From contig NZ_LMMV01000012.1 in the NCBI RefSeq assembly GCF_001422405.1, positions 474,830 to 538,829 on the forward strand: 64,000 nt of DNA, in the 5' to 3' direction. The notes under the pieces were generated by a model. It was given only the letters and a program-made list of their open reading frames with translations, had not been told where the DNA came from and searched no databases. The stretch's first letter is position 1. The number at the start of each line of letters is the position of its first letter. Shown here one piece after another: positions 17,137-25,759 of this stretch. The translations under genes and the position numbers were made by a program. The DNA comes from Pseudorhodoferax sp. Leaf267. Lineage in GTDB: Bacteria > Pseudomonadota > Gammaproteobacteria > Burkholderiales > Burkholderiaceae_C.

Positions 17137-17165
17137 CGTTGCCAGCGATGGCAATGTGCATTTTT
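17137..17165 (+). terminator. Weak rho-independent terminator after ugpQ
   Basis: CGTTGCCA (17137-17144) and TGGCAATG (17149-17156) form an 8-pair stem with one G-U pair around the loop GCGA; a run of five T follows at 17161-17165 after four other bases. It lies 20 bases after the ugpQ stop and before the phospholipase gene, so it plausibly separates the two transcripts. The gap before the T-run makes it imperfect. Confidence 0.45.
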
Positions 17166-17289: not shown

Positions 17290-19098
17290 ATGGTAGTAGC
17301 CGCAAAATTCCGGACCCGCGCCTTGCAGGTGCTGCGCGACAGCCGTGTCTTCGGCCAGCTGGACGAGTCCGTGCTGAACGACCTGGCTGGCTTCTTCGAG
17401 TTGCAGGATGTCCGCGGTGGGCTGCAGGTGCTGCGCGAGGGCGACCCCTCGGACAGCATGTTCTTCGTCCTGAGCGGGCGCCTGCGCGTGTCGCGCCGCA
17501 ATCCCGATGGCAGCCTGCTGCTCTACAACGAGATCAGTGCGGGCGAGAGCGTGGGCGAGACCGGCATGATCCTGCACCAGCCGCGCACGGCCGATGTGAC
17601 GGCGGTGCGCGATTCCACGCTGGCTGTGCTGCACCGTGCCAACTTCGAGACGGTGCTGCGCCTGCAGCCGCTGGCCGTGAACCGCGTGTTCTCGCAGGCC
17701 ATCTACAACCACCTGCGCCATGGGGCGCAGATCGCGCAGCAGCATTACGCTCTTTCCTTCGTGGTCGTGCCCTTGCACGTGGGCGCCGGTGCCGACGTGG
17801 TCGCACGCGGCCTGGCCAAGGCCCTGGGGAACAGTGGGCGCGTCCATCTGCTGCCGCCCAGTGAGGCACAGGCGCACAGCGGGCTGGGCAGCCTGGATGC
17901 AGGCGACGACGACATCGGCCGGCGCAATGACGACCTGGAGGAGCAGTTCGACTATCTGGTCTACGAGGCCGAGCCGGTCGCGTCCTCGTGGACGCGGCGT
18001 GCCTTCCGCCAGGCCGACCAGGTGATCTTCGTGGCCAACGCCGGTGCTTCGATGGAGGTGGGCGAGCTGGAGCAGCGGCTCACGCGCGAACCCGGCTTTG
18101 CGATGAAGCGCAAGCACCTGGTGGTGCTGCATCCGGCCAACACGCCCAAGCCGCACGAGGTGCGGCGCTGGCTGCAGGGCCGCAGCTGCGAGCGGGTCTA
18201 CCCGCTGCGCACGGGCCATGACGGCGACTTCGGCCGGCTCGGCCGCTTCCTGACGGGCACCGCGACCGGCGTGGTGCTGGGCGGCGGCGGCGCGCGTGGC
18301 TATGCGCACCTGGGCGTGCTGCGCGCGCTGTCCGAGGCCGGCATTCCGATCGACATGATCGGCGGCAACAGCATGGGCGCGCTGGTCGGCGCCCAGTACG
18401 CCTGCGACGTGCCGCTGGACGAGATCAGGCGGCGCACCCAGGCCTTCGCGGCGGGCGGCGAGACCATCACCGTGCCCCTGATCTCGCTGGTGGCCGGCCG
18501 CCGGGTCGAGCGCGACCTGCAGAAGATGTTCGGCGACATCGCGGTCGACAGCCTGTGGCGGCCATTCTTCGCCGCGGCCTGCAACCTGTCCAAGGGCTGC
18601 ACCACGGTGCAGGACTCCGGGCCGCTGTGGCGCGCCGTGCTGGCCAGCAATTCGCCGGCCGGCCTGTTCCCGCCGGTGCTGTACAAGGGCGACCTGCTGG
18701 TGGACGGGGCCATCCTGGAAAACGTGCCGGTCAGCGCCATGCGCATGCGCCTGGGCACGCCGCTGGAGAAGCGGCGCGGCAACGGCACCATCATCGCGAT
18801 CGACGTGGATGTGCAGGACGACCTGGGCGTCGACCCCGCACTGGCGCGCCTGTCGCGCCGCACCGCGCTCAAGGGCCTGCTGACGCGCAAGCGCATCACG
18901 CCGGGCATCACCGAGATCCTGTACCGGGCCGGCCACATCGGCGGTTTGAACCAGCGCGCCAGCACGATCGCGCAGGCTGACCATTATCTTGAGCCGCCAG
19001 TTGCCGATTACTCCATGATGGAACACAAGAGCGCTGCCGAGATCGTGGAACGCGGCTACCAGCATGCCGTCAAGGAGATCGCCAAATGGCCGCGTTGA
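17290..19098 (+). CDS. Cyclic-nucleotide-binding patatin-like phospholipase (NTE/RssA-like)
   Basis: A 602-residue protein joining a cNMP-binding (CRP-like) domain to a patatin lipase domain, the architecture of neuropathy target esterase and its bacterial relatives. The cNMP domain covers about residues 12-130 (VLREGDPSDSMFFVLSGRLRVS, GESVGETGMILHQPRTADVTA). A middle region with a nucleotide-binding look spans about 150-310. The patatin domain starts with the oxyanion loop GGGGARGYAHLGVL (about 330-343), has the nucleophile elbow GGNSMGAL with Ser361, and the catalytic Asp472 in VDGAILENVPV. These give the Ser-Asp dyad of a phospholipase/lysophospholipase. The start at 17290 has only a weak Shine-Dalgarno. 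Its last 13 bases overlap the NRPS gene, so both are probably made from one message. No signal peptide; substrate unknown. Confidence 0.92.
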   Translation: MVVAAKFRTRALQVLRDSRVFGQLDESVLNDLAGFFELQDVRGGLQVLREGDPSDSMFFVLSGRLRVSRRNPDGSLLLYNEISAGESVGETGMILHQPRTADVTAVRDSTLAVLHRANFETVLRLQPLAVNRVFSQAIYNHLRHGAQIAQQHYALSFVVVPLHVGAGADVVARGLAKALGNSGRVHLLPPSEAQAHSGLGSLDAGDDDIGRRNDDLEEQFDYLVYEAEPVASSWTRRAFRQADQVIFVANAGASMEVGELEQRLTREPGFAMKRKHLVVLHPANTPKPHEVRRWLQGRSCERVYPLRTGHDGDFGRLGRFLTGTATGVVLGGGGARGYAHLGVLRALSEAGIPIDMIGGNSMGALVGAQYACDVPLDEIRRRTQAFAAGGETITVPLISLVAGRRVERDLQKMFGDIAVDSLWRPFFAAACNLSKGCTTVQDSGPLWRAVLASNSPAGLFPPVLYKGDLLVDGAILENVPVSAMRMRLGTPLEKRRGNGTIIAIDVDVQDDLGVDPALARLSRRTALKGLLTRKRITPGITEILYRAGHIGGLNQRASTIAQADHYLEPPVADYSMMEHKSAAEIVERGYQHAVKEIAKWPR

Positions 19099-22000
19099 CG
19101 GCTGCCACCCCTACGGCACATGGCCAGGCGCCGGCCGAACGCCTGGCCCTGTCGCTGAGCCAGCGCGAGGTCTGGCTGGACCAGCGGGCCTGGCCCGGCA
19201 GCGCCCACCTGAACATCGGCGGTGGCGCCTTCCTGGTCGGGCCGCTGGACCTCACCATCTTCCGCCGGGCGCTGGCGCGGCTGGTCGCCGAGAACGAGGC
19301 CCTGCGCCTGGCGCCCTTGGCCGATGGCAGCCAGCGCTTGCTGCCGGTGGCCGACCCGGCGCTGGAAGTCATCGACTGCAGCACTGCCGACGACCCCAAG
19401 CAGGCCATGCGCGACTGGTGGCAGCAGCGCATGACCGAGCCCTTCGTGCTCGATGGCCGGTCGCCGTGGCGGTTCGCGCTGTTGCGTGCGTCGGACAACT
19501 TGCACGGCCTGACCATCCAGTTCCACCACCTGGTCATGGACGGCTGGGGCACCTCCCAGGTCATGCGGCGCTGGAGCGAGATCCACAACGCGCTGGCCCG
19601 CGGCGAGGAGCCCGGCCGCTCCGACGTGCCGGGCTACAGCGCATTTATCGAAGAGTCCAATGCCTACCGTGCGTCGGCCGGTTTCGAGCGCGACGCGCGC
19701 TACTGGCGCGAGCGCATCCCCACGCTGCCCACACCGATGATCGAGCGGCGTTTCAGCCAGGCCCGGCCCGACTCGCTGCCCTCGGCCAGCCTGGCCTTCC
19801 ACCGCGTGCCGCGCGTGGACTACGAACGGCTGCGGCGCTATGCCGTCGAGCAGAACCAGACCGTGTTCAACCTGGTCCTGGCCGCGCTGGTGCTGTATTT
19901 CGCGCGCATCGGTGACCGGCGCGAGGTGGTGGTCGGCGTGCCCAGCCTGAACCGGGGCGGGCGCCGCTACACCGACACGCTGGGCATGTTCGTGGGCGTG
20001 GTGCCGATCCGCATCGAGGTCGCGCCGGACATGCCGCTCAACGAGCTGCTGTCCGGCGTGGGCACGGCCATGCGCGCGGCGCTGCGGCACCCGCGCTACC
20101 CGCTGAGCGAGCTGGGGCGCGAACTGCAGATGATCCGCGCCAACCGCGACGGGCTGTTCGACGTGCTGCTCTCCTTCGAGCGGCAGGACTACGCCGTCGC
20201 CTTCGGCCAGGCCCAGCTGGTCGAATCACGCCAGCTGTTCTCGGGCGTCGCGCGCTTTCCGCTGGGCGTGACGGTCTGCGAGTTCCATCCCGAGCAGGAC
20301 GTGGAACTGGCGCTGGAGGCCAGCGCCGCCTGTTTCGAGGCCGGCGAGGTGGAGTTGCTGGGCCGCCGGCTCTGGCATCTGGTCGAAGGGCTGATGGACG
20401 CGCCGGCCGGCACCAGCGTGGGCGACGTCGAGCTGCTGCCGCCCGAGGAGCGCTGGCACGTGGTGTCGGGCCAGCACCAGGACGTGGCCTGCCACGACGT
20501 CACGCTGCCCTTCGTGAGCCTGTTCGAGTACCAGGCCTCGCTGCGGCCCGACGCCGTCGCCCTGGTCTGGGACGGCGGCACCATGGATTACCTGGGGCTG
20601 GACCGCCGTGCCAACCGCCTGGCCCGCCAGCTCGTGCTGCAGGGCGTGGGCCGCGACACCGTGGTCGCCATGGCGGTGGACCGCTCGCCCGAGCTGGTGC
20701 TGGCGCTGCTGGCGATCGCCAAGGCCGGCGCTGCGTTTCTCCCGCTGGACGTGGACGCACCGCTGGCCCGCCTGGCGGCCATCCTGCAAGAGAGCGCGGC
20801 CGCGGCGCTGGTGATCCCGTCGCGGCACGCCGATCGGCTGGGCGGCCTGCATGCGGGCGCCGTGGTGCTGCCACCGCTGGCCGTCGAGGCCTTCGACCCC
20901 ACCGTGCCCGACCTGCCGCCGGCCCAGCCCGCGCCGGGCGACCTGGCCTACGTGATCTTCACATCCGGCTCCACCGGCCGGCCCAAGGGCGTGATGATCG
21001 AGCACGGCATGCTGGCGCGGCGGCTGATGTGGCTGTCGCGCGCCTACGACGTGGACTGGCGCGACCGCTCGGGCCAGGGCACGCAGGCCACGTTCGACCC
21101 CTCGCTGATCGAGCTGCTGCTGCCGCTGACCCACGGCGCCAGCATCGCGCTGCCGCCGCCAGGCCGGCTGCTGCCCGAGTCGCTGGCCGACTTCGCCGTG
21201 CGCCACGGCGTCACCTTCATGGCCTTCGTGCCGTCCACGCTGGGCCGCTTCCTCGACGCGGCGGCGGGCCGGCCCGGGCTCAAGCTGCGCGTGGCCTGCT
21301 GCGGCGGTGAGGTGCTGGCGCCCGAGCTGGCGGCTCGCTTTTGCGCGCAGACCGGCGCGCGGCTGTTCAACGTCTACGGCCCGACCGAGGCCACCATCTT
21401 CGCCACCGCCTGGGAGTGCGAGACGCACCGCCACCACTCGGCGCTGCCGATCGGCCGGCCGATCGATGACACCCGCATCTACGTGCTGGACACGGCGCAG
21501 CGCCCGATGCCGCTGGGCGTGCCCGGCGAGATCTTCATCGGCGGCGACGCGGTCGCGCGCGGCTACCTGAAGCGGCCCGACCTGGATGCCGTGGCCTTCC
21601 TGCCGGACCCGTTCAGGCCCGGCGGGCGCATGTACCGCACCGGCGACCGCGGCTGGCTGGGCAGCGACGGGCAGTTGCATTTCATCGGGCGGCTGGACCG
21701 CCAGGTCAAGCTGCGGGGCTATCGCATCGAGTTGGGCGAGATCGAGTCGGCGCTGCTGGCCATCGACGGTGTGGCCCAGGCCGCGGCACAGCTGTGCGAA
21801 GTGCGCGGCAAGCCCACGATCCATGCCTGGGTCGGCGCGCCCGATCAGCGCGCCGCCCGGCCGCCCGAAGGCGCTCAGCACCGCAGCGCGCAGCGCGAAG
21901 GTACTCCAGTGAGCGCCGAGCGTCTGCACGCCCAGCTACGCGCGCGCCTGCCCGACTACATGCTGCCCTCGGGCATCAGCGTGCTGCCCGAGTTGCCCAG

Positions 22001-23015
22001 CAGCAGCGTGGGCAAGACCGACTACGCGCGCCTGCCCGAGCCCGTGGCCGCGCCGGCCGCCGTCTCGCGCGCGCCCATGAACCAGATCGAACGCGACCTG
22101 CTGGCGCTGTGGCAGGACGTGCTGGCCGTGGCGACGCTGGGCGTGCACGACAACTTCTTCGACCTGGGCGGCGACTCGCTGGCCGCCGTCAACATGATGG
22201 CCGGCCTGGAAAAGCTGCTCGGGCGCAAGGTGCCGCTGTACCTGATCACCGAGCACCCGACGATCGAGGGCCTGGCCATCGCGCTGCAGCAGCACAGCGG
22301 TGCGCCTGGGCTGCTGCGCCACCTGAGCACGGAATCGGCCCGCGTGCCGCTGTACCTGGCGGCGTCCGGCCACGGCGACCTGCTGCGCTTCCAGAGCCTG
22401 GCCAAGGCCATGGGCGATACGGGCAACCTGTACATGCTGCAGCCGCCGCTGCAGACCAGCATCCAGACCATCGTGGAGCTGGCCGAGCTGTACGCCGACC
22501 GCATCCAGGCGCAGGCCGTCAGCAGCGGGCACGAGGGCGGCTACGTGGCCGGCTTCTCGGTGGCCGGCATGGCGGCGCTGGAGACGGCGCGGCTGCTGCA
22601 GCAGCGCGGCTGGCCGGTGCGCGGCCTGATCCTCTTGGACACCACCTTTCCGAGTTCGCTGCTGGGCGGTACGGCCGCCTGGCGCGCGCTGGGCTGGGTG
22701 GTGCGGCACTTCCATATCCAGGACCTGAGCATGAACGGCCGCCGCCTGGGCGCCATGTTCAACGACCCGGGCTTGCTGAGCCAGGTCATGGCGCTGCGCG
22801 GCTACAAGCCTGTGGGATTCGACGGGCCGACGCTGCTGGTGCGCTCGACCGGCCTGGGCGCGTGGGACCGCTGGCTGTTCCGGCCCTGGCGCCAGCTCAT
22901 GGGCAGGCAGCTGACCGAGGTGCAGGTGCCCGGCATGCACGGCACCGTGTTCGACGCCCAACATGTGCGCGAACTGGCCGGCGCACTGGCCCGCGGCACG
23001 GGAACCATCGCATGA
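19086..23015 (+). CDS. Single-module NRPS (C-A-PCP-TE)
   Basis: A 1309-residue free-standing nonribosomal peptide synthetase module. Condensation domain (about 15-440) with the active motif FHHLVMDGWG (His147, His148, Asp152). Adenylation domain (about 480-910) with VIFTSGSTGRPKGV (623-636), NVYGPTEATIFAT, YRTGDRG, LDRQVKLRGYRIELGEIE and the A10 lysine in SSSVGKTDY. Carrier domain with DLGGDSL (phosphopantetheine Ser1031). C-terminal thioesterase (about 1080-1300) with GFSVAG (Ser1158), LLDTTFP and His1285; the elbow reads GxSxA-G, not GxSxG. By comparison with GrsA the substrate-pocket residues read roughly D-P-I-A-A-C-V-I-F-K, which I cannot assign; the Asp at the first position suggests an alpha-amino acid. 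A lone C-A-PCP-TE unit could acylate one amino acid and release it. Overlaps the genes on both sides. Confidence 0.93.
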   Translation: MAALTAATPTAHGQAPAERLALSLSQREVWLDQRAWPGSAHLNIGGGAFLVGPLDLTIFRRALARLVAENEALRLAPLADGSQRLLPVADPALEVIDCSTADDPKQAMRDWWQQRMTEPFVLDGRSPWRFALLRASDNLHGLTIQFHHLVMDGWGTSQVMRRWSEIHNALARGEEPGRSDVPGYSAFIEESNAYRASAGFERDARYWRERIPTLPTPMIERRFSQARPDSLPSASLAFHRVPRVDYERLRRYAVEQNQTVFNLVLAALVLYFARIGDRREVVVGVPSLNRGGRRYTDTLGMFVGVVPIRIEVAPDMPLNELLSGVGTAMRAALRHPRYPLSELGRELQMIRANRDGLFDVLLSFERQDYAVAFGQAQLVESRQLFSGVARFPLGVTVCEFHPEQDVELALEASAACFEAGEVELLGRRLWHLVEGLMDAPAGTSVGDVELLPPEERWHVVSGQHQDVACHDVTLPFVSLFEYQASLRPDAVALVWDGGTMDYLGLDRRANRLARQLVLQGVGRDTVVAMAVDRSPELVLALLAIAKAGAAFLPLDVDAPLARLAAILQESAAAALVIPSRHADRLGGLHAGAVVLPPLAVEAFDPTVPDLPPAQPAPGDLAYVIFTSGSTGRPKGVMIEHGMLARRLMWLSRAYDVDWRDRSGQGTQATFDPSLIELLLPLTHGASIALPPPGRLLPESLADFAVRHGVTFMAFVPSTLGRFLDAAAGRPGLKLRVACCGGEVLAPELAARFCAQTGARLFNVYGPTEATIFATAWECETHRHHSALPIGRPIDDTRIYVLDTAQRPMPLGVPGEIFIGGDAVARGYLKRPDLDAVAFLPDPFRPGGRMYRTGDRGWLGSDGQLHFIGRLDRQVKLRGYRIELGEIESALLAIDGVAQAAAQLCEVRGKPTIHAWVGAPDQRAARPPEGAQHRSAQREGTPVSAERLHAQLRARLPDYMLPSGISVLPELPSSSVGKTDYARLPEPVAAPAAVSRAPMNQIERDLLALWQDVLAVATLGVHDNFFDLGGDSLAAVNMMAGLEKLLGRKVPLYLITEHPTIEGLAIALQQHSGAPGLLRHLSTESARVPLYLAASGHGDLLRFQSLAKAMGDTGNLYMLQPPLQTSIQTIVELAELYADRIQAQAVSSGHEGGYVAGFSVAGMAALETARLLQQRGWPVRGLILLDTTFPSSLLGGTAAWRALGWVVRHFHIQDLSMNGRRLGAMFNDPGLLSQVMALRGYKPVGFDGPTLLVRSTGLGAWDRWLFRPWRQLMGRQLTEVQVPGMHGTVFDAQHVRELAGALARGTGTIA

Positions 23016-23740
23016 GCGCAGCGCCGGCCGACGACGCGCGCAAGGCGCTGCGCGGCCGCCTCGTCTGGCTGGTGCTGGCGCTGCTGGCCCTGGTGGCGCT
23101 GGCCGCGGCCTGGACCTGGTCGCCCATGCGCGCATGGCTCGACGTGGACCGCATCGTCGACACGCTGCAGCGCCTGGGCCAGGCGTTCGGGCCGGTCGCG
23201 GCCGTGGCCGGGTTCGGCCTGGCCGTCACGCTGGCCGTGCCGCTGACCTTCCTGTCGCTGGTGACCCTGGTGGCCTTCGGGCCCTGGGCCGGCTTTACCT
23301 GCTGCATGCTGGGCGCGCTGATCGGCGCAGCGGCCAGCCATGGCCTGGGCCGGCTGCTGGGCCACGAGGTGGTGCAGCGCCTGGGCGGGCCGCGCGTGAA
23401 CGCCATCAGCCAGCGCTTGGCCAGCCATGGCCTGCTGGCCGTGATCGCCATCCGCGTGGTGCCGGTGGCGCCGTTCGCCATCATCAACATGGTGGCCGGC
23501 GCCTCGCACATCAGCCTGCGCGACATGCTGCTGGGCACGGCGCTGGGCATGGCGCCGGGCACGCTGGTGATGGCGTTCTTCGTCGATCAGATCGTGGCCG
23601 CACTGCGCACGCCCGGGCCGCTGACCTACGCGCTGCTGGGGCTCACGCTGTTGCTGCTCGTGGGCGCTGGCTGGGGCGCCAGGCACTGGGTGCGGCGCGT
23701 CGAGGCGCAGCGCGCGGCTGCTGCTAAAGGATCCGGTTGA
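23012..23740 (+). CDS. VTT-domain (TVP38/TMEM64, DedA-like) membrane protein
   Basis: A 242-residue polytopic protein. After a short cytoplasmic N-terminus the first span is VWLVLALLALVALAAAWTWS; then GFGLAVTLAVPLTFLSLVTL, FGPWAGFTCCMLGALIGAAA, the VTT core with AVIAIRVVPVAPFAIINMVAG (about residues 146-166), and a final span YALLGLTLLLLVGAGWG. The RxxPxxPFxxxN region is the conserved signature. Eukaryotic TMEM41B/VMP1 are lipid scramblases, and bacterial DedA proteins move undecaprenyl phosphate or PE, so lipid translocation is a reasonable inference. ATGA overlap with the NRPS stop implies translational coupling. Its 3' end overlaps the convergent BatA-like gene by 17 bases. Confidence 0.88.
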   Translation: MSAAPADDARKALRGRLVWLVLALLALVALAAAWTWSPMRAWLDVDRIVDTLQRLGQAFGPVAAVAGFGLAVTLAVPLTFLSLVTLVAFGPWAGFTCCMLGALIGAAASHGLGRLLGHEVVQRLGGPRVNAISQRLASHGLLAVIAIRVVPVAPFAIINMVAGASHISLRDMLLGTALGMAPGTLVMAFFVDQIVAALRTPGPLTYALLGLTLLLLVGAGWGARHWVRRVEAQRAAAAKGSG

Positions 23741-24773
23741 ACCAGGCCAGCGACAGCCCGGCCGAGAGCAGGGCCAGCGCGGCGCCGGCCAGCGCCAGCA
23801 GGGCGGAGATTTCCGTTTCCTTCTTCACCACCGTGAGCCGCGAACTCAGGGTCTCGTAGACCTTCTTGAGGTTTTCGGCCGTGCCGGCGTAGAAGTACTC
23901 GGCCTGGGTGCGCGTGGCCACGGCCTTGAGCGTCTCCTCGTCCAGCCGCACGCGCATGGACCAGCCCTCGAAGCCGATGGTCTCGCCGTCCACCGTGCCC
24001 ACGCCCACGGTGTAGACGCGCACGCCACGGTCGGCGGCCATCTTGGCCGCCTCCAGCGTGTCCACGCCGGTGGTGCGCTGGCCGTCGGTCAGCAGGATCA
24101 CGGCGGCCGAGGTGTAGGAGCCGGGGGCCACGGGCACGAATTCCTTCTTCGGCTCCTTGTCGGTGCCGGCCTTGTCCAGCGCCACGCCGCGCGGGCGCTC
24201 GCGGCCGTAGGTCATGGCGCCCACGTCGATGCCCGCGTCCGGGAACAGCTCGGCCAGCGACACCACGATGGCGCTGCCGATGGCGGTGGCACGTTGCAAC
24301 TGGAACTTGTCGATGGCCGTGACCAGATCCTCGCGGCTCAGCGTGGCCGGTTGCACGACCTGGGCCGTGCCGGCAAAGGCCACGATGCCCACGCGCACGT
24401 TGCGCGGCAGATCGGCGATGAAGGCCTTGGCGGCGTTCTGCGCGGCCACCAGCCGGTTCGGCTGCACGTCGGTGGCGCGCATGCTGCCCGACACGTCCAT
24501 GGCCAGGATGATGGTCTCCTGCTGCGACGGCAGGCTGATCACGGCCATGGGCCGCGCGGCCGCCACGATCAGCGCCGTCAGCGCCAGCAGGAACAGCACG
24601 GGCGGGATGTGGCGCTTGATGCTCTGGCCGGTGCCCATGGCTTCGCGCACGATGGACAGGCTGGCATAGCGCAGCGCCGCCTTCTTCTTGCGCCTGAGCA
24701 GCCACACATAGAGCAGCACCAGCAGCGGCGCGAGCAGCAGCAGCCAGAGGAATTCGGGCCAGAGAAAGTGCAT
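23724..24773 (-). CDS. BatA-type VWA domain membrane protein
   Basis: A 349-residue protein with an N-terminal membrane span (WPEFLWLLLLAPLLVLLYVWL), a basic stretch RRKKKAALRYAS, and a second span (VLFLLALTALIVAAARP, about residues 55-71). A von Willebrand A domain with an intact MIDAS starts at MDVSGSM (DxSxS), with VILLTDGQRTTG further on. A last hydrophobic segment (ALLALAGAALALLSAGLSLAWF) ends the protein. BatA/BatB proteins work with MoxR ATPases and DUF58 proteins, thought to mature or chaperone metal-dependent or envelope complexes. The ATG at 24773 is preceded by AAGGAGAG; a longer upstream frame has no such site. It overlaps the VTT gene tail to tail. Confidence 0.9.
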   Translation of the reverse strand: MHFLWPEFLWLLLLAPLLVLLYVWLLRRKKKAALRYASLSIVREAMGTGQSIKRHIPPVLFLLALTALIVAAARPMAVISLPSQQETIILAMDVSGSMRATDVQPNRLVAAQNAAKAFIADLPRNVRVGIVAFAGTAQVVQPATLSREDLVTAIDKFQLQRATAIGSAIVVSLAELFPDAGIDVGAMTYGRERPRGVALDKAGTDKEPKKEFVPVAPGSYTSAAVILLTDGQRTTGVDTLEAAKMAADRGVRVYTVGVGTVDGETIGFEGWSMRVRLDEETLKAVATRTQAEYFYAGTAENLKKVYETLSSRLTVVKKETEISALLALAGAALALLSAGLSLAWFNRIL

Positions 24774-24798
24774 GGATGCTCTCCTTTCGCTCAGCCGG

Positions 24799-25759
24799 TC
24801 AGGCCGCGCGGGCGGTGGCCGGTTGCAGATGGGTGGGCAGGCCGCCCGCGCCGCTGGACAGCTGGCTGCGGCGCTTGCGCAGGTCGGCAAAGCGCATGAT
24901 GGCATCGACCAGGTCGGCGTCGGTCGACAGCTCCAGCGTGTCGACGCCGGCCTGTGTCAGCGACTGGCGCAGCTCGGCCTCGCGCTGGGCGGCGATGCGC
25001 GCGAAGCGCTTGCGAAAGCCCGGGTCCGAGGTGTCGACCATGAGCTGCTCGCCGGTCTCGGCATCGCGGATCGGGATCAGGCCCAGGTCGGGCAGTTCCA
25101 GCTCCATCGGGTCCAGCAGGCGCACGGCCAGCACCTCGTGGCGCTGCGCCAGTTGCGCCAGCGGCTTTTCCCAGCCGGGCTCGCTGATGAAGTCGGACAC
25201 CACGAACACCGTGGCGCGCCGGCGCATCAGGTTGCCGGCGGACTGCAGCAGCTCGTGCAGCCGCGTCACGCTGCCGGCCTGGTCCACGGCTTGCGGGCGC
25301 TGCTGGATCATGTGCAGCAGCTGCAGCACGTGCAGCCGGCCGCTGCGCGCGGGCAGCACCTGGTCCACGCCCGCGCCGTACAGCATGGCGCCCACGCGGT
25401 TGCCGTGCCGCGTCAGCAGCCGCGCCAGCACGCCGACGAAGCCGGCGGAGACCTCGCGCTTGCGCTGCTCGCCGGAGCCGAAGTCCACCGAGGGCGACAG
25501 GTCCAGCAGGAACCAGGCCGCCATCTCCCGGTCTTCGGTGAACACGCGCACATGGGGCTGCCGCAGTCGGGCGGTGACGTTCCAGTCGATGTGTCGCACG
25601 TCGTCGTGGTGCTGGTACTCGCGCAGGTCGGCCAGGTCCATGCCGGTGCCGCGCATCAGCGTGCGGTAGTCGCCCTGCAGCAGGCCATCCAGCCGGCGGA
25701 TGACGGTCCATTCCAGGCGCCGCAGCACCTGGTCGGCGCGCGGTGCTGGCGTTGCAGGT

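Follow-up and report, generated by a model that had tools for sequence, protein, structure and literature searches.

In the 64,000-nucleotide stretch of Pseudorhodoferax sp. Leaf267 analyzed here (the window; contig NZ_LMMV01000012.1, positions 474,830 to 538,829), three overlapping genes encode a patatin phospholipase with a cyclic nucleotide monophosphate (cNMP)-binding domain, a single-module nonribosomal peptide synthetase (NRPS), and a membrane protein of the VTT family. This trio is real, and it is a conserved unit across genera with changing flanks. We tentatively interpret it as a self-contained lipo-amino-acid operon, whose NRPS would make either an N-acylated amino acid or a small lipopeptide, cyclic or dimeric; we give this interpretation a probability of just under one half (about 0.47). 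The genes and the domains of the NRPS, with condensation (C), adenylation (A), peptidyl carrier protein (PCP), and thioesterase (TE) domains, are as follows.

17290..19098, plus strand: cNMP-binding, P-loop-like, patatin phospholipase (NTE-like), 602 aa (Pfam; 16 orthologs; AlphaFold model)
19086..23015, plus strand: single-module NRPS, C-A-PCP-TE, 1309 aa (Pfam; motifs in 17 orthologs, TE in 16)
19125..20471, plus strand: condensation domain, acyl-starter-like; HHLVMDG at residues 147-153; Thr156 at the donor-gate position (profile search; alignment)
20493..22040, plus strand: adenylation domain; pocket D-P-I-S-C-G-V-I-F-K as read by eye (Pfam; alignment; GrsA numbering)
22323..23000, plus strand: type I thioesterase; Ser1158, Asp1185, and His1285 (Pfam; alignment)
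23012..23740, plus strand: VTT (DedA/TVP38-type) membrane protein, 242 aa; start in an ATGA overlap with the NRPS stop

Pfam identified cNMP_binding (E = 1.5e-18), NTE_Ploop (1.3e-17), and Patatin (1.9e-24) in the first protein, Condensation (2.9e-58), AMP-binding (6e-79), PP-binding (3.1e-14), and Thioesterase (2.6e-10) in the second, and VTT_dom (PF09335; 3e-23) in the third; by these assignments, the NRPS module is flanked in the cassette by two types of lipid-handling protein. A first interpretation made from the DNA letters alone (the sequence-only reading) had proposed genes overlapping by a few bases, a patatin with the catalytic pair Ser361/Asp472, a C-A-PCP-TE NRPS with intact catalytic motifs, and a VTT protein as the third product, and all of this was borne out. 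The overlaps are of 13 nt (patatin/NRPS) and 4 nt (NRPS/VTT). Ser361, the nucleophile, is part of the motif GGNSMG and Asp472 of VDGA; the two residues are invariant in the 16 aligned patatins (16/16). The HHxxxDG motif and the GGDSL of the carrier are kept in 17/17 NRPSs and the Ser/Asp/His of the TE in 16/17, the 17th being cut by a contig end before this domain.

Conservation of the trio

One set of 200 genomes of the family was searched with the NRPS, the patatin, and the VTT protein. NRPS orthologs, 47-80% identical to that of the window, were found in 15 of them (G000, G069, G175, G162, G039, G082, G186, G110, G154, G028, G144, G149, G180, G021, and G013); in G186 and G110, the NRPS is truncated by contig ends. 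A patatin of the cassette type (52-100% identity) was present in 16 genomes, i.e., the same 15 plus G116, where the contig ends after 48 aligned residues of an NRPS start at 73% identity; neither the rest of this NRPS nor a VTT match turned up in that assembly of 620 contigs. VTT matches occurred in 17 genomes, the 15 with the NRPS plus G033 and G159 (36-38% identity), and no patatin or NRPS relative was found within about 10 kb of these last two. The patatins of the cassette scored at least 611 bits and the next homolog 291 bits, with all such homologs at 31-36% identity, so that in the family sample the cassette clade is clearly apart from the other homologs.

The cassette was also found beyond the family. 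In an order-level sample (n = 300), the cassette-type patatin was present in the window's own genome and in two genomes of another family (G309 and G220), where an NRPS (55-56% identity) and a VTT protein (47%) adjoin it. Two contigs of metagenome-assembled genomes (MAGs) carry it as well (L032, from a Betaproteobacteria MAG, and L033, from a Rhodoferax MAG), for a total of 20 cassette loci, whole or cut by contig ends. The patatin-NRPS-VTT order on one strand was found in 17/17 contigs holding the whole trio, namely the window, 14 other loci (eight genera in all), and the two MAGs. None of the three loci cut by contig ends, which include two further genera, conflicts with this order: in G186 the patatin is on one contig and the NRPS and VTT genes on another, in G110 the patatin and most of the NRPS are on one contig and the NRPS end and the VTT gene on two others, and the third is the G116 locus described above. 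As a rule, neighboring cassette genes share a few bases or are at most about 25 bases apart; the doubtful overlaps that result from automatic start choices in L037, L043, L044, and L045 are not to be taken literally. When the predicted genes of 19 loci (G116 left out) were clustered, only the three cassette genes recurred in more than three genera. The gene picker used for this clustering found the patatin in 8 genera, the VTT gene in 7, and the NRPS in 10, and since it missed some cassette genes it may have missed flanking genes too. The conserved three-gene neighborhood in related genomes envisaged at the outset is thus found, with the order kept in 17/17 contigs and the cassette in 15 to 16 of 200 genomes and several genera.

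The three proteins also diverge together: across 17 loci, their protein distances are correlated for patatin and NRPS (r = 0.94), patatin and VTT (0.89), and NRPS and VTT (0.91). Between the two closest species (G069 and G175), dN/dS was 0.04 for the patatin, 0.05 for the NRPS, and 0.18 for the VTT gene; for these two species against the window, it was 0.30-0.42. The low values between the two species, like the recurrence of the trio in 20 loci, speak for more than a chance arrangement. For 13 control loci with patatin homologs of 29-36% identity, including the paralog of the own genome (L088) and two loci on short contigs (L081 and L084), the stretches examined gave no match to the NRPS or the VTT protein at E ≤ 1e-3. 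The association is therefore specific to the cassette patatin clade, as far as examined.

These results bear on the idea that the genes are merely cotranscribed neighbors with unrelated functions. Each domain family does occur alone, since the own genome has five VTT places and a second cNMP-patatin, 34% identical. The same order and tight spacing of the whole trio in eight genera and two MAGs with changing flanks, the co-occurrence in the 200-genome sample, and the correlated divergence of the three proteins nevertheless make this idea most improbable, and orthologs standing apart were limited to the two VTT homologs of G033 and G159.

Those two homologs (L142, 9514-10035, in G033 and L141, 9254-9883, in G159) are possible relatives of the source of the third gene of the cassette. 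In some genera of the window's own family, the NRPS is 46-48% identical to that of the window, below the 55-57% of G309 and G220 from the other family. This hints at a possible transfer across families, as judged from sequence identity and with AcpS, itself erratic, as the only species marker there. Spread by plasmids was considered and set aside, since no plasmid match to the patatin was found at E ≤ 1e-50. Outside the order, a class-level sample (n = 369) gave no match other than the own genome at E ≤ 1e-95, a threshold that catches close relatives only.

A lone module with a starter-like condensation domain

The own genome, of 6.53 Mb, has a single PF00668 match, the NRPS of the cassette, and therefore no larger assembly line was found as its partner. 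A larger NRPS cluster elsewhere in this genome was rejected on this ground, and there the module seems to act alone; the sequence-only reading had likewise called it a lone module. Other cassette genomes, such as G069 and G175, do carry further NRPSs. There is also a second, different near-single-module NRPS (open reading frame of about 1360-1405 aa, 32-36% identical to that of the window), which we found in L047 (G079), L048 (G175:C2), L049 (G069:C55), L050 (G053), L051 (G126), and L052 (G150), with a weaker NRPS match just upstream in L047, L048, L049, and L051. It is present in both sampled sister species of the window's genus, but the search of the window's genome gave no C domain of this kind.

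A profile of 17 C-domain sequences was compared with solved structures. The best match was RzmA-Cs (200 bits), followed by CDA C1 (153), ObiF1 (147), Txo2 (145), and TycC (2jgp; 130), with lower scores for LgrA (84), TycB (83), SrfA-C (80), epimerization domains (about 48-51; TycA E, 51), and cyclization domains (45-69). The C domain of the window alone matched RzmA-Cs (117 bits), ObiF1 (111), 8z0q (105), CDA C1 (92), and EntF (82). PvdL, at 154 bits, was discarded as a starter match, its score being the sum of two domains (59 and 98), the first of them epimerization-like. The best reading of this similarity leans toward a C domain of the acyl-starter type, and since its nearest relatives are acyl-starter domains (RzmA-Cs and CDA C1), it most likely N-acylates one amino acid. 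This fits one half of what had been proposed for the module, i.e., that an acyl group is joined to one amino acid; for the other half, that it aminoacylates a lipid, there is no specific support.

Arg148 of RzmA is described as gating acyl length (PMC7804268). The residue aligned to it is Thr156, with Thr in 17/17 NRPSs and in both loci of the other family. Since Thr is small, an acyl chain longer than acetyl is more likely, which at such a distance from RzmA should be taken as a hint.

Amino acid, release, and carrier priming

Over 17 proteins, the A-domain pocket reads by eye as D-P-I/V-S/T/A-C-G-V-I-F-K, with positions after the GrsA numbering. The pocket is kept across these proteins, so the substrate is probably the same throughout, and it is probably an alpha-amino acid with an uncharged side chain. 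Judged by eye, the pocket does not seem to match the serine code. The A-domain profile had many matches among solved A domains, with no informative nearest one, and the TE is weakly related to solved thioesterases (best, 51 bits). Its nucleophile motif is GFSVAG in the window's genus and GFS[V/I]GG in the other aligned genera.

A carrier domain usually needs a phosphopantetheinyl transferase (PPTase) of the Sfp type. The only PF01648 match of the own genome (G000) is a 136-aa AcpS adjoining PdxJ and NagZ, and neither PF17837, searched in this genome only, nor PF22624 was found there. Of the 17 cassette genomes, 12 had a single PF01648 place, and 5 (G039, G154, G028, G149, and G013) had two or more. 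The sole place in the other 11 is AcpS-like (36-90% identical to the AcpS of the own genome), and PF22624 matched in G013, G028, G154, and G149 and marginally in G082. The PF01648 search thus found only AcpS-like proteins, and no PPTase of the Sfp type, in 12/17 cassette genomes. Either AcpS may prime the carrier or a divergent PPTase may have escaped the search. The missing enzyme carries little weight, because G069 and G175 have one PF01648 place despite carrying another NRPS. In G021 and G149 (L110 and L112), AcpS is 45-47% identical to that of the own genome, and the neighboring PdxJ and NagZ 67-76%; gene replacement or fast change of AcpS is possible in this genus.

The same 12 genomes hint at a housekeeping role, as would be expected if the NRPS made a new membrane lipid. 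Its product would then be an N-(3-hydroxyacyl) amino acid, to which the patatin, as a transacylase, would add a second acyl chain from a phospholipid, and the VTT protein would flip the resulting aminolipid. That only lipid-handling partners are conserved with the NRPS agrees with this scheme. We found no direct support for it; patatins are normally hydrolases, and the A-domain pocket has no acidic residue beyond Asp235, which by the code rules speaks against ornithine or lysine. We regard this scheme as quite improbable.

The patatin and VTT partners

Besides a single cNMP domain, the first protein of the cassette has a P-loop-like domain that by eye lacks an intact Walker lysine and a patatin domain with the Ser/Asp dyad and the oxyanion motif GGGGARG (residues 331-337). 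Patatins of the NTE/PNPLA6 type and bacterial cNMP-patatins likewise combine cNMP, NTE_Ploop, and patatin domains in one chain; animal NTE has more than one cNMP domain. The phosphate-binding cassette GETGMILHQPR contains the cyclic-nucleotide contact residues E90 and R99, kept in 15/16 and 16/16 aligned patatins, respectively, and the activity of the enzyme may be under cyclic-nucleotide control. Its location is presumably the inner membrane. The AlphaFold model (mean predicted local distance difference test score [pLDDT], 73.6, with stretches below 50 that include Asp472) matches PlpD (5fya) and cNMP domains.

The AlphaFold model of the VTT protein has a pLDDT of 83.4, and no solved relative was found by sequence up to E = 1, nor by fold at E ≤ 0.001. 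At the likely first re-entrant tip, whose position we infer, 15/16 aligned proteins have no Asp or Glu, and one Arg (Arg148) is invariant in the 16, both as judged by eye. The DedA subfamily COG0398 (TVP38/TMEM64) is described as lacking an acidic residue at the first re-entrant tip and one or both basic residues at the second, and its members, related to TMEM41B and VMP1, are proposed as possible phospholipid scramblases (PMC10127716). In its residues, the VTT protein of the cassette looks like a member of this subfamily.

Proposed function and its alternatives

In the operon that we propose, a fatty acyl thioester (of coenzyme A [CoA] or acyl carrier protein [ACP]) would enter the NRPS at the starter-type C domain. 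The A domain would load one amino acid on its own carrier, the C domain would join the acyl group to it, and the TE would release the product, either an N-acylated amino acid or a small lipopeptide that is cyclic or dimeric; the domain anatomy suggests this by analogy with SwrW, which makes serrawettin W1. At the inner membrane, the patatin, possibly controlled by a cyclic nucleotide, would cut membrane phospholipids, and thereby either clear by-products or supply acyl chains, to be activated by an acyl-CoA ligase of the cell itself. The VTT protein would equilibrate either the amphiphile or the disturbed phospholipids across the two leaflets. The product class, the patatin as acyl source, and the movement of the product by the VTT protein are all putative. 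In any case, the cassette is small and complete, and it has been kept repeatedly. Should the phospholipase feed the NRPS, membrane turnover would be linked directly to nonribosomal synthesis; should the VTT protein move the product, this would point to a defined substrate for a DedA subfamily of bacteria that so far has only a proposed function.

Several observations weigh against this proposal, including the PPTase result above. By Pfam, the cassette has no acyl-CoA ligase and no ACP, and therefore a fatty acid freed by the patatin must be reactivated elsewhere. Judged by its counterpart in RzmA, the Thr at the gate suggests a chain of medium length and not one of C16-C18, with no specific fit to chains derived from phospholipids. 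ObiF1 and Txo2 score nearly as high as CDA C1, and the starter assignment is one by similarity only. The cNMP-patatins of 29-36% identity had no NRPS or VTT partners in the 13 loci examined, and therefore the patatin fold itself implies no such pathway.

A stricter version of the route would have a cNMP-gated patatin take acyl chains from phospholipids, a starter module primed by AcpS link them through an amide bond to the uncharged amino acid, and a dedicated VTT scramblase spread the resulting lipid across the two leaflets. We think this version improbable. If true, it would wire phospholipid turnover directly into nonribosomal synthesis, as a housekeeping-like lipid class.

Alternatively, the NRPS product might be the same, with the patatin and the VTT protein protective and off the pathway: they would remove lysolipids or misplaced lipids and rebalance the leaflets during synthesis of a surfactant-like or antifungal lipopeptide. 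Consistent with this, no acyl-activating enzyme connects the patatin to the NRPS, and a scramblase function such as that proposed for COG0398 would suit the VTT protein. Self-protection genes, however, are usually exporters. We consider protection rather unlikely, with the published inhibition assays described below taken into account.

Genomic surroundings

Upstream of the cassette lies ugpQ (GDPD), whose stop is 172 bases before the patatin start. A scan of this region gave one terminator-like hairpin, against a mean of 0.1 in shuffled sequences.

17137..17156, plus strand: terminator-like hairpin with a T-rich tail, after ugpQ, between the ugp genes and the cassette (consensus match only)

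A functional link to the upstream ugp genes was rejected, since relatives of UgpE and UgpQ adjoin the cassette only in the window's genus (L034 and L035) and the hairpin lies between. The downstream neighbor is a convergent BatA/VWA gene (23724-24905, minus strand). Its 3' end and that of the VTT gene overlap by 17 bases (23724-23740), an overlap also present in two sister species.

Comparison with known systems

The family PF09335 was formerly named SNARE-associated, and therefore a gene published under that name beside an NRPS and a patatin should be the VTT gene. Such a set, an NRPS with a patatin-like phospholipase and a SNARE-associated-domain protein, has been reported in a Rhodoferax bin, a Rhodocyclaceae bin, and three cultured strains, Rhodoferax koreense, Pseudoduganella ginsengisoli, and Noviherbaspirillum denitrificans (PMC10681181, PLoS One 2023). 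Compared with the NRPS of bin 43, theirs show 51-58% identity. The gene types are the same three as in the window, and matched by this description the published cassette is very likely the one studied here. The published NRPSs are labeled with C, A, and T domains only, and the C domain is assigned to the syringomycin-like class (31-33%); the NRPS domains of N. denitrificans are split over two genes (PMC10681181), whereas in the window they are in one.

The three strains inhibited Botrytis cinerea by 43-47%, against 11.6% for a Rhodoferax without a C domain, and in two of the three no other antimicrobial gene cluster is reported (PMC10681181). The cassette may account for this inhibition in strains described as carrying it, which would suit a protective role of the patatin and the VTT protein beside an antifungal product. 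Nevertheless, the link is a correlation over three strains without mutants, Colletotrichum plurivorum was inhibited by none of the three and Verticillium dahliae by one, and the authors themselves call the connection not yet clear, with neither product nor mutant reported (PMC10681181). They point to patatins as virulence factors and to SNARE proteins as acting on eukaryotes (PMC10681181). The statement of the sequence-only reading that no characterized system has this set stands insofar as none was found in the literature, with limited search terms and PMC10681181 using other spellings; the set itself was already in print. We regard the cassette as an enzyme of a known kind in a new accessory setting, one that has been seen in print before but is uncharacterized.

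Among better-known enzymes, the starter C domains of the lipopeptide synthetases RzmA and HolA of Burkholderiales include the nearest solved C domain (RzmA, 200 bits). The rzmA and holA clusters are described as having no ACP or acyl-ligase gene, as is the case for the cassette, and both C domains use acyl-CoA in vitro (PMC7804268), a capacity that the NRPS of the window would also require. They differ in belonging to synthetases of longer peptides and in their donor gates, Arg148 or Ala149 as opposed to Thr156 in the window (PMC7804268). The gut fatty-acid-amide system OaaA/OaaC/OaaACP is likewise a compact NRPS-like route to acylated amines with a starter-related C domain (PMC13142362). It uses three free-standing proteins and a free amine as acceptor (PMC13142362), whereas the NRPS of the window unites A, PCP, and TE domains in a single chain. 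The closest working model is, by analogy, SwrW of Serratia, which like the NRPS of the window is one C-A-T-TE module joining a fatty acyl group to a single kind of amino acid; serrawettin W1 consists of two serines and two 3-hydroxydecanoic acids (PMC7767323). No patatin or VTT partner is described for SwrW in the passages considered (PMC7767323). The pocket in the window does not seem to match the serine code.

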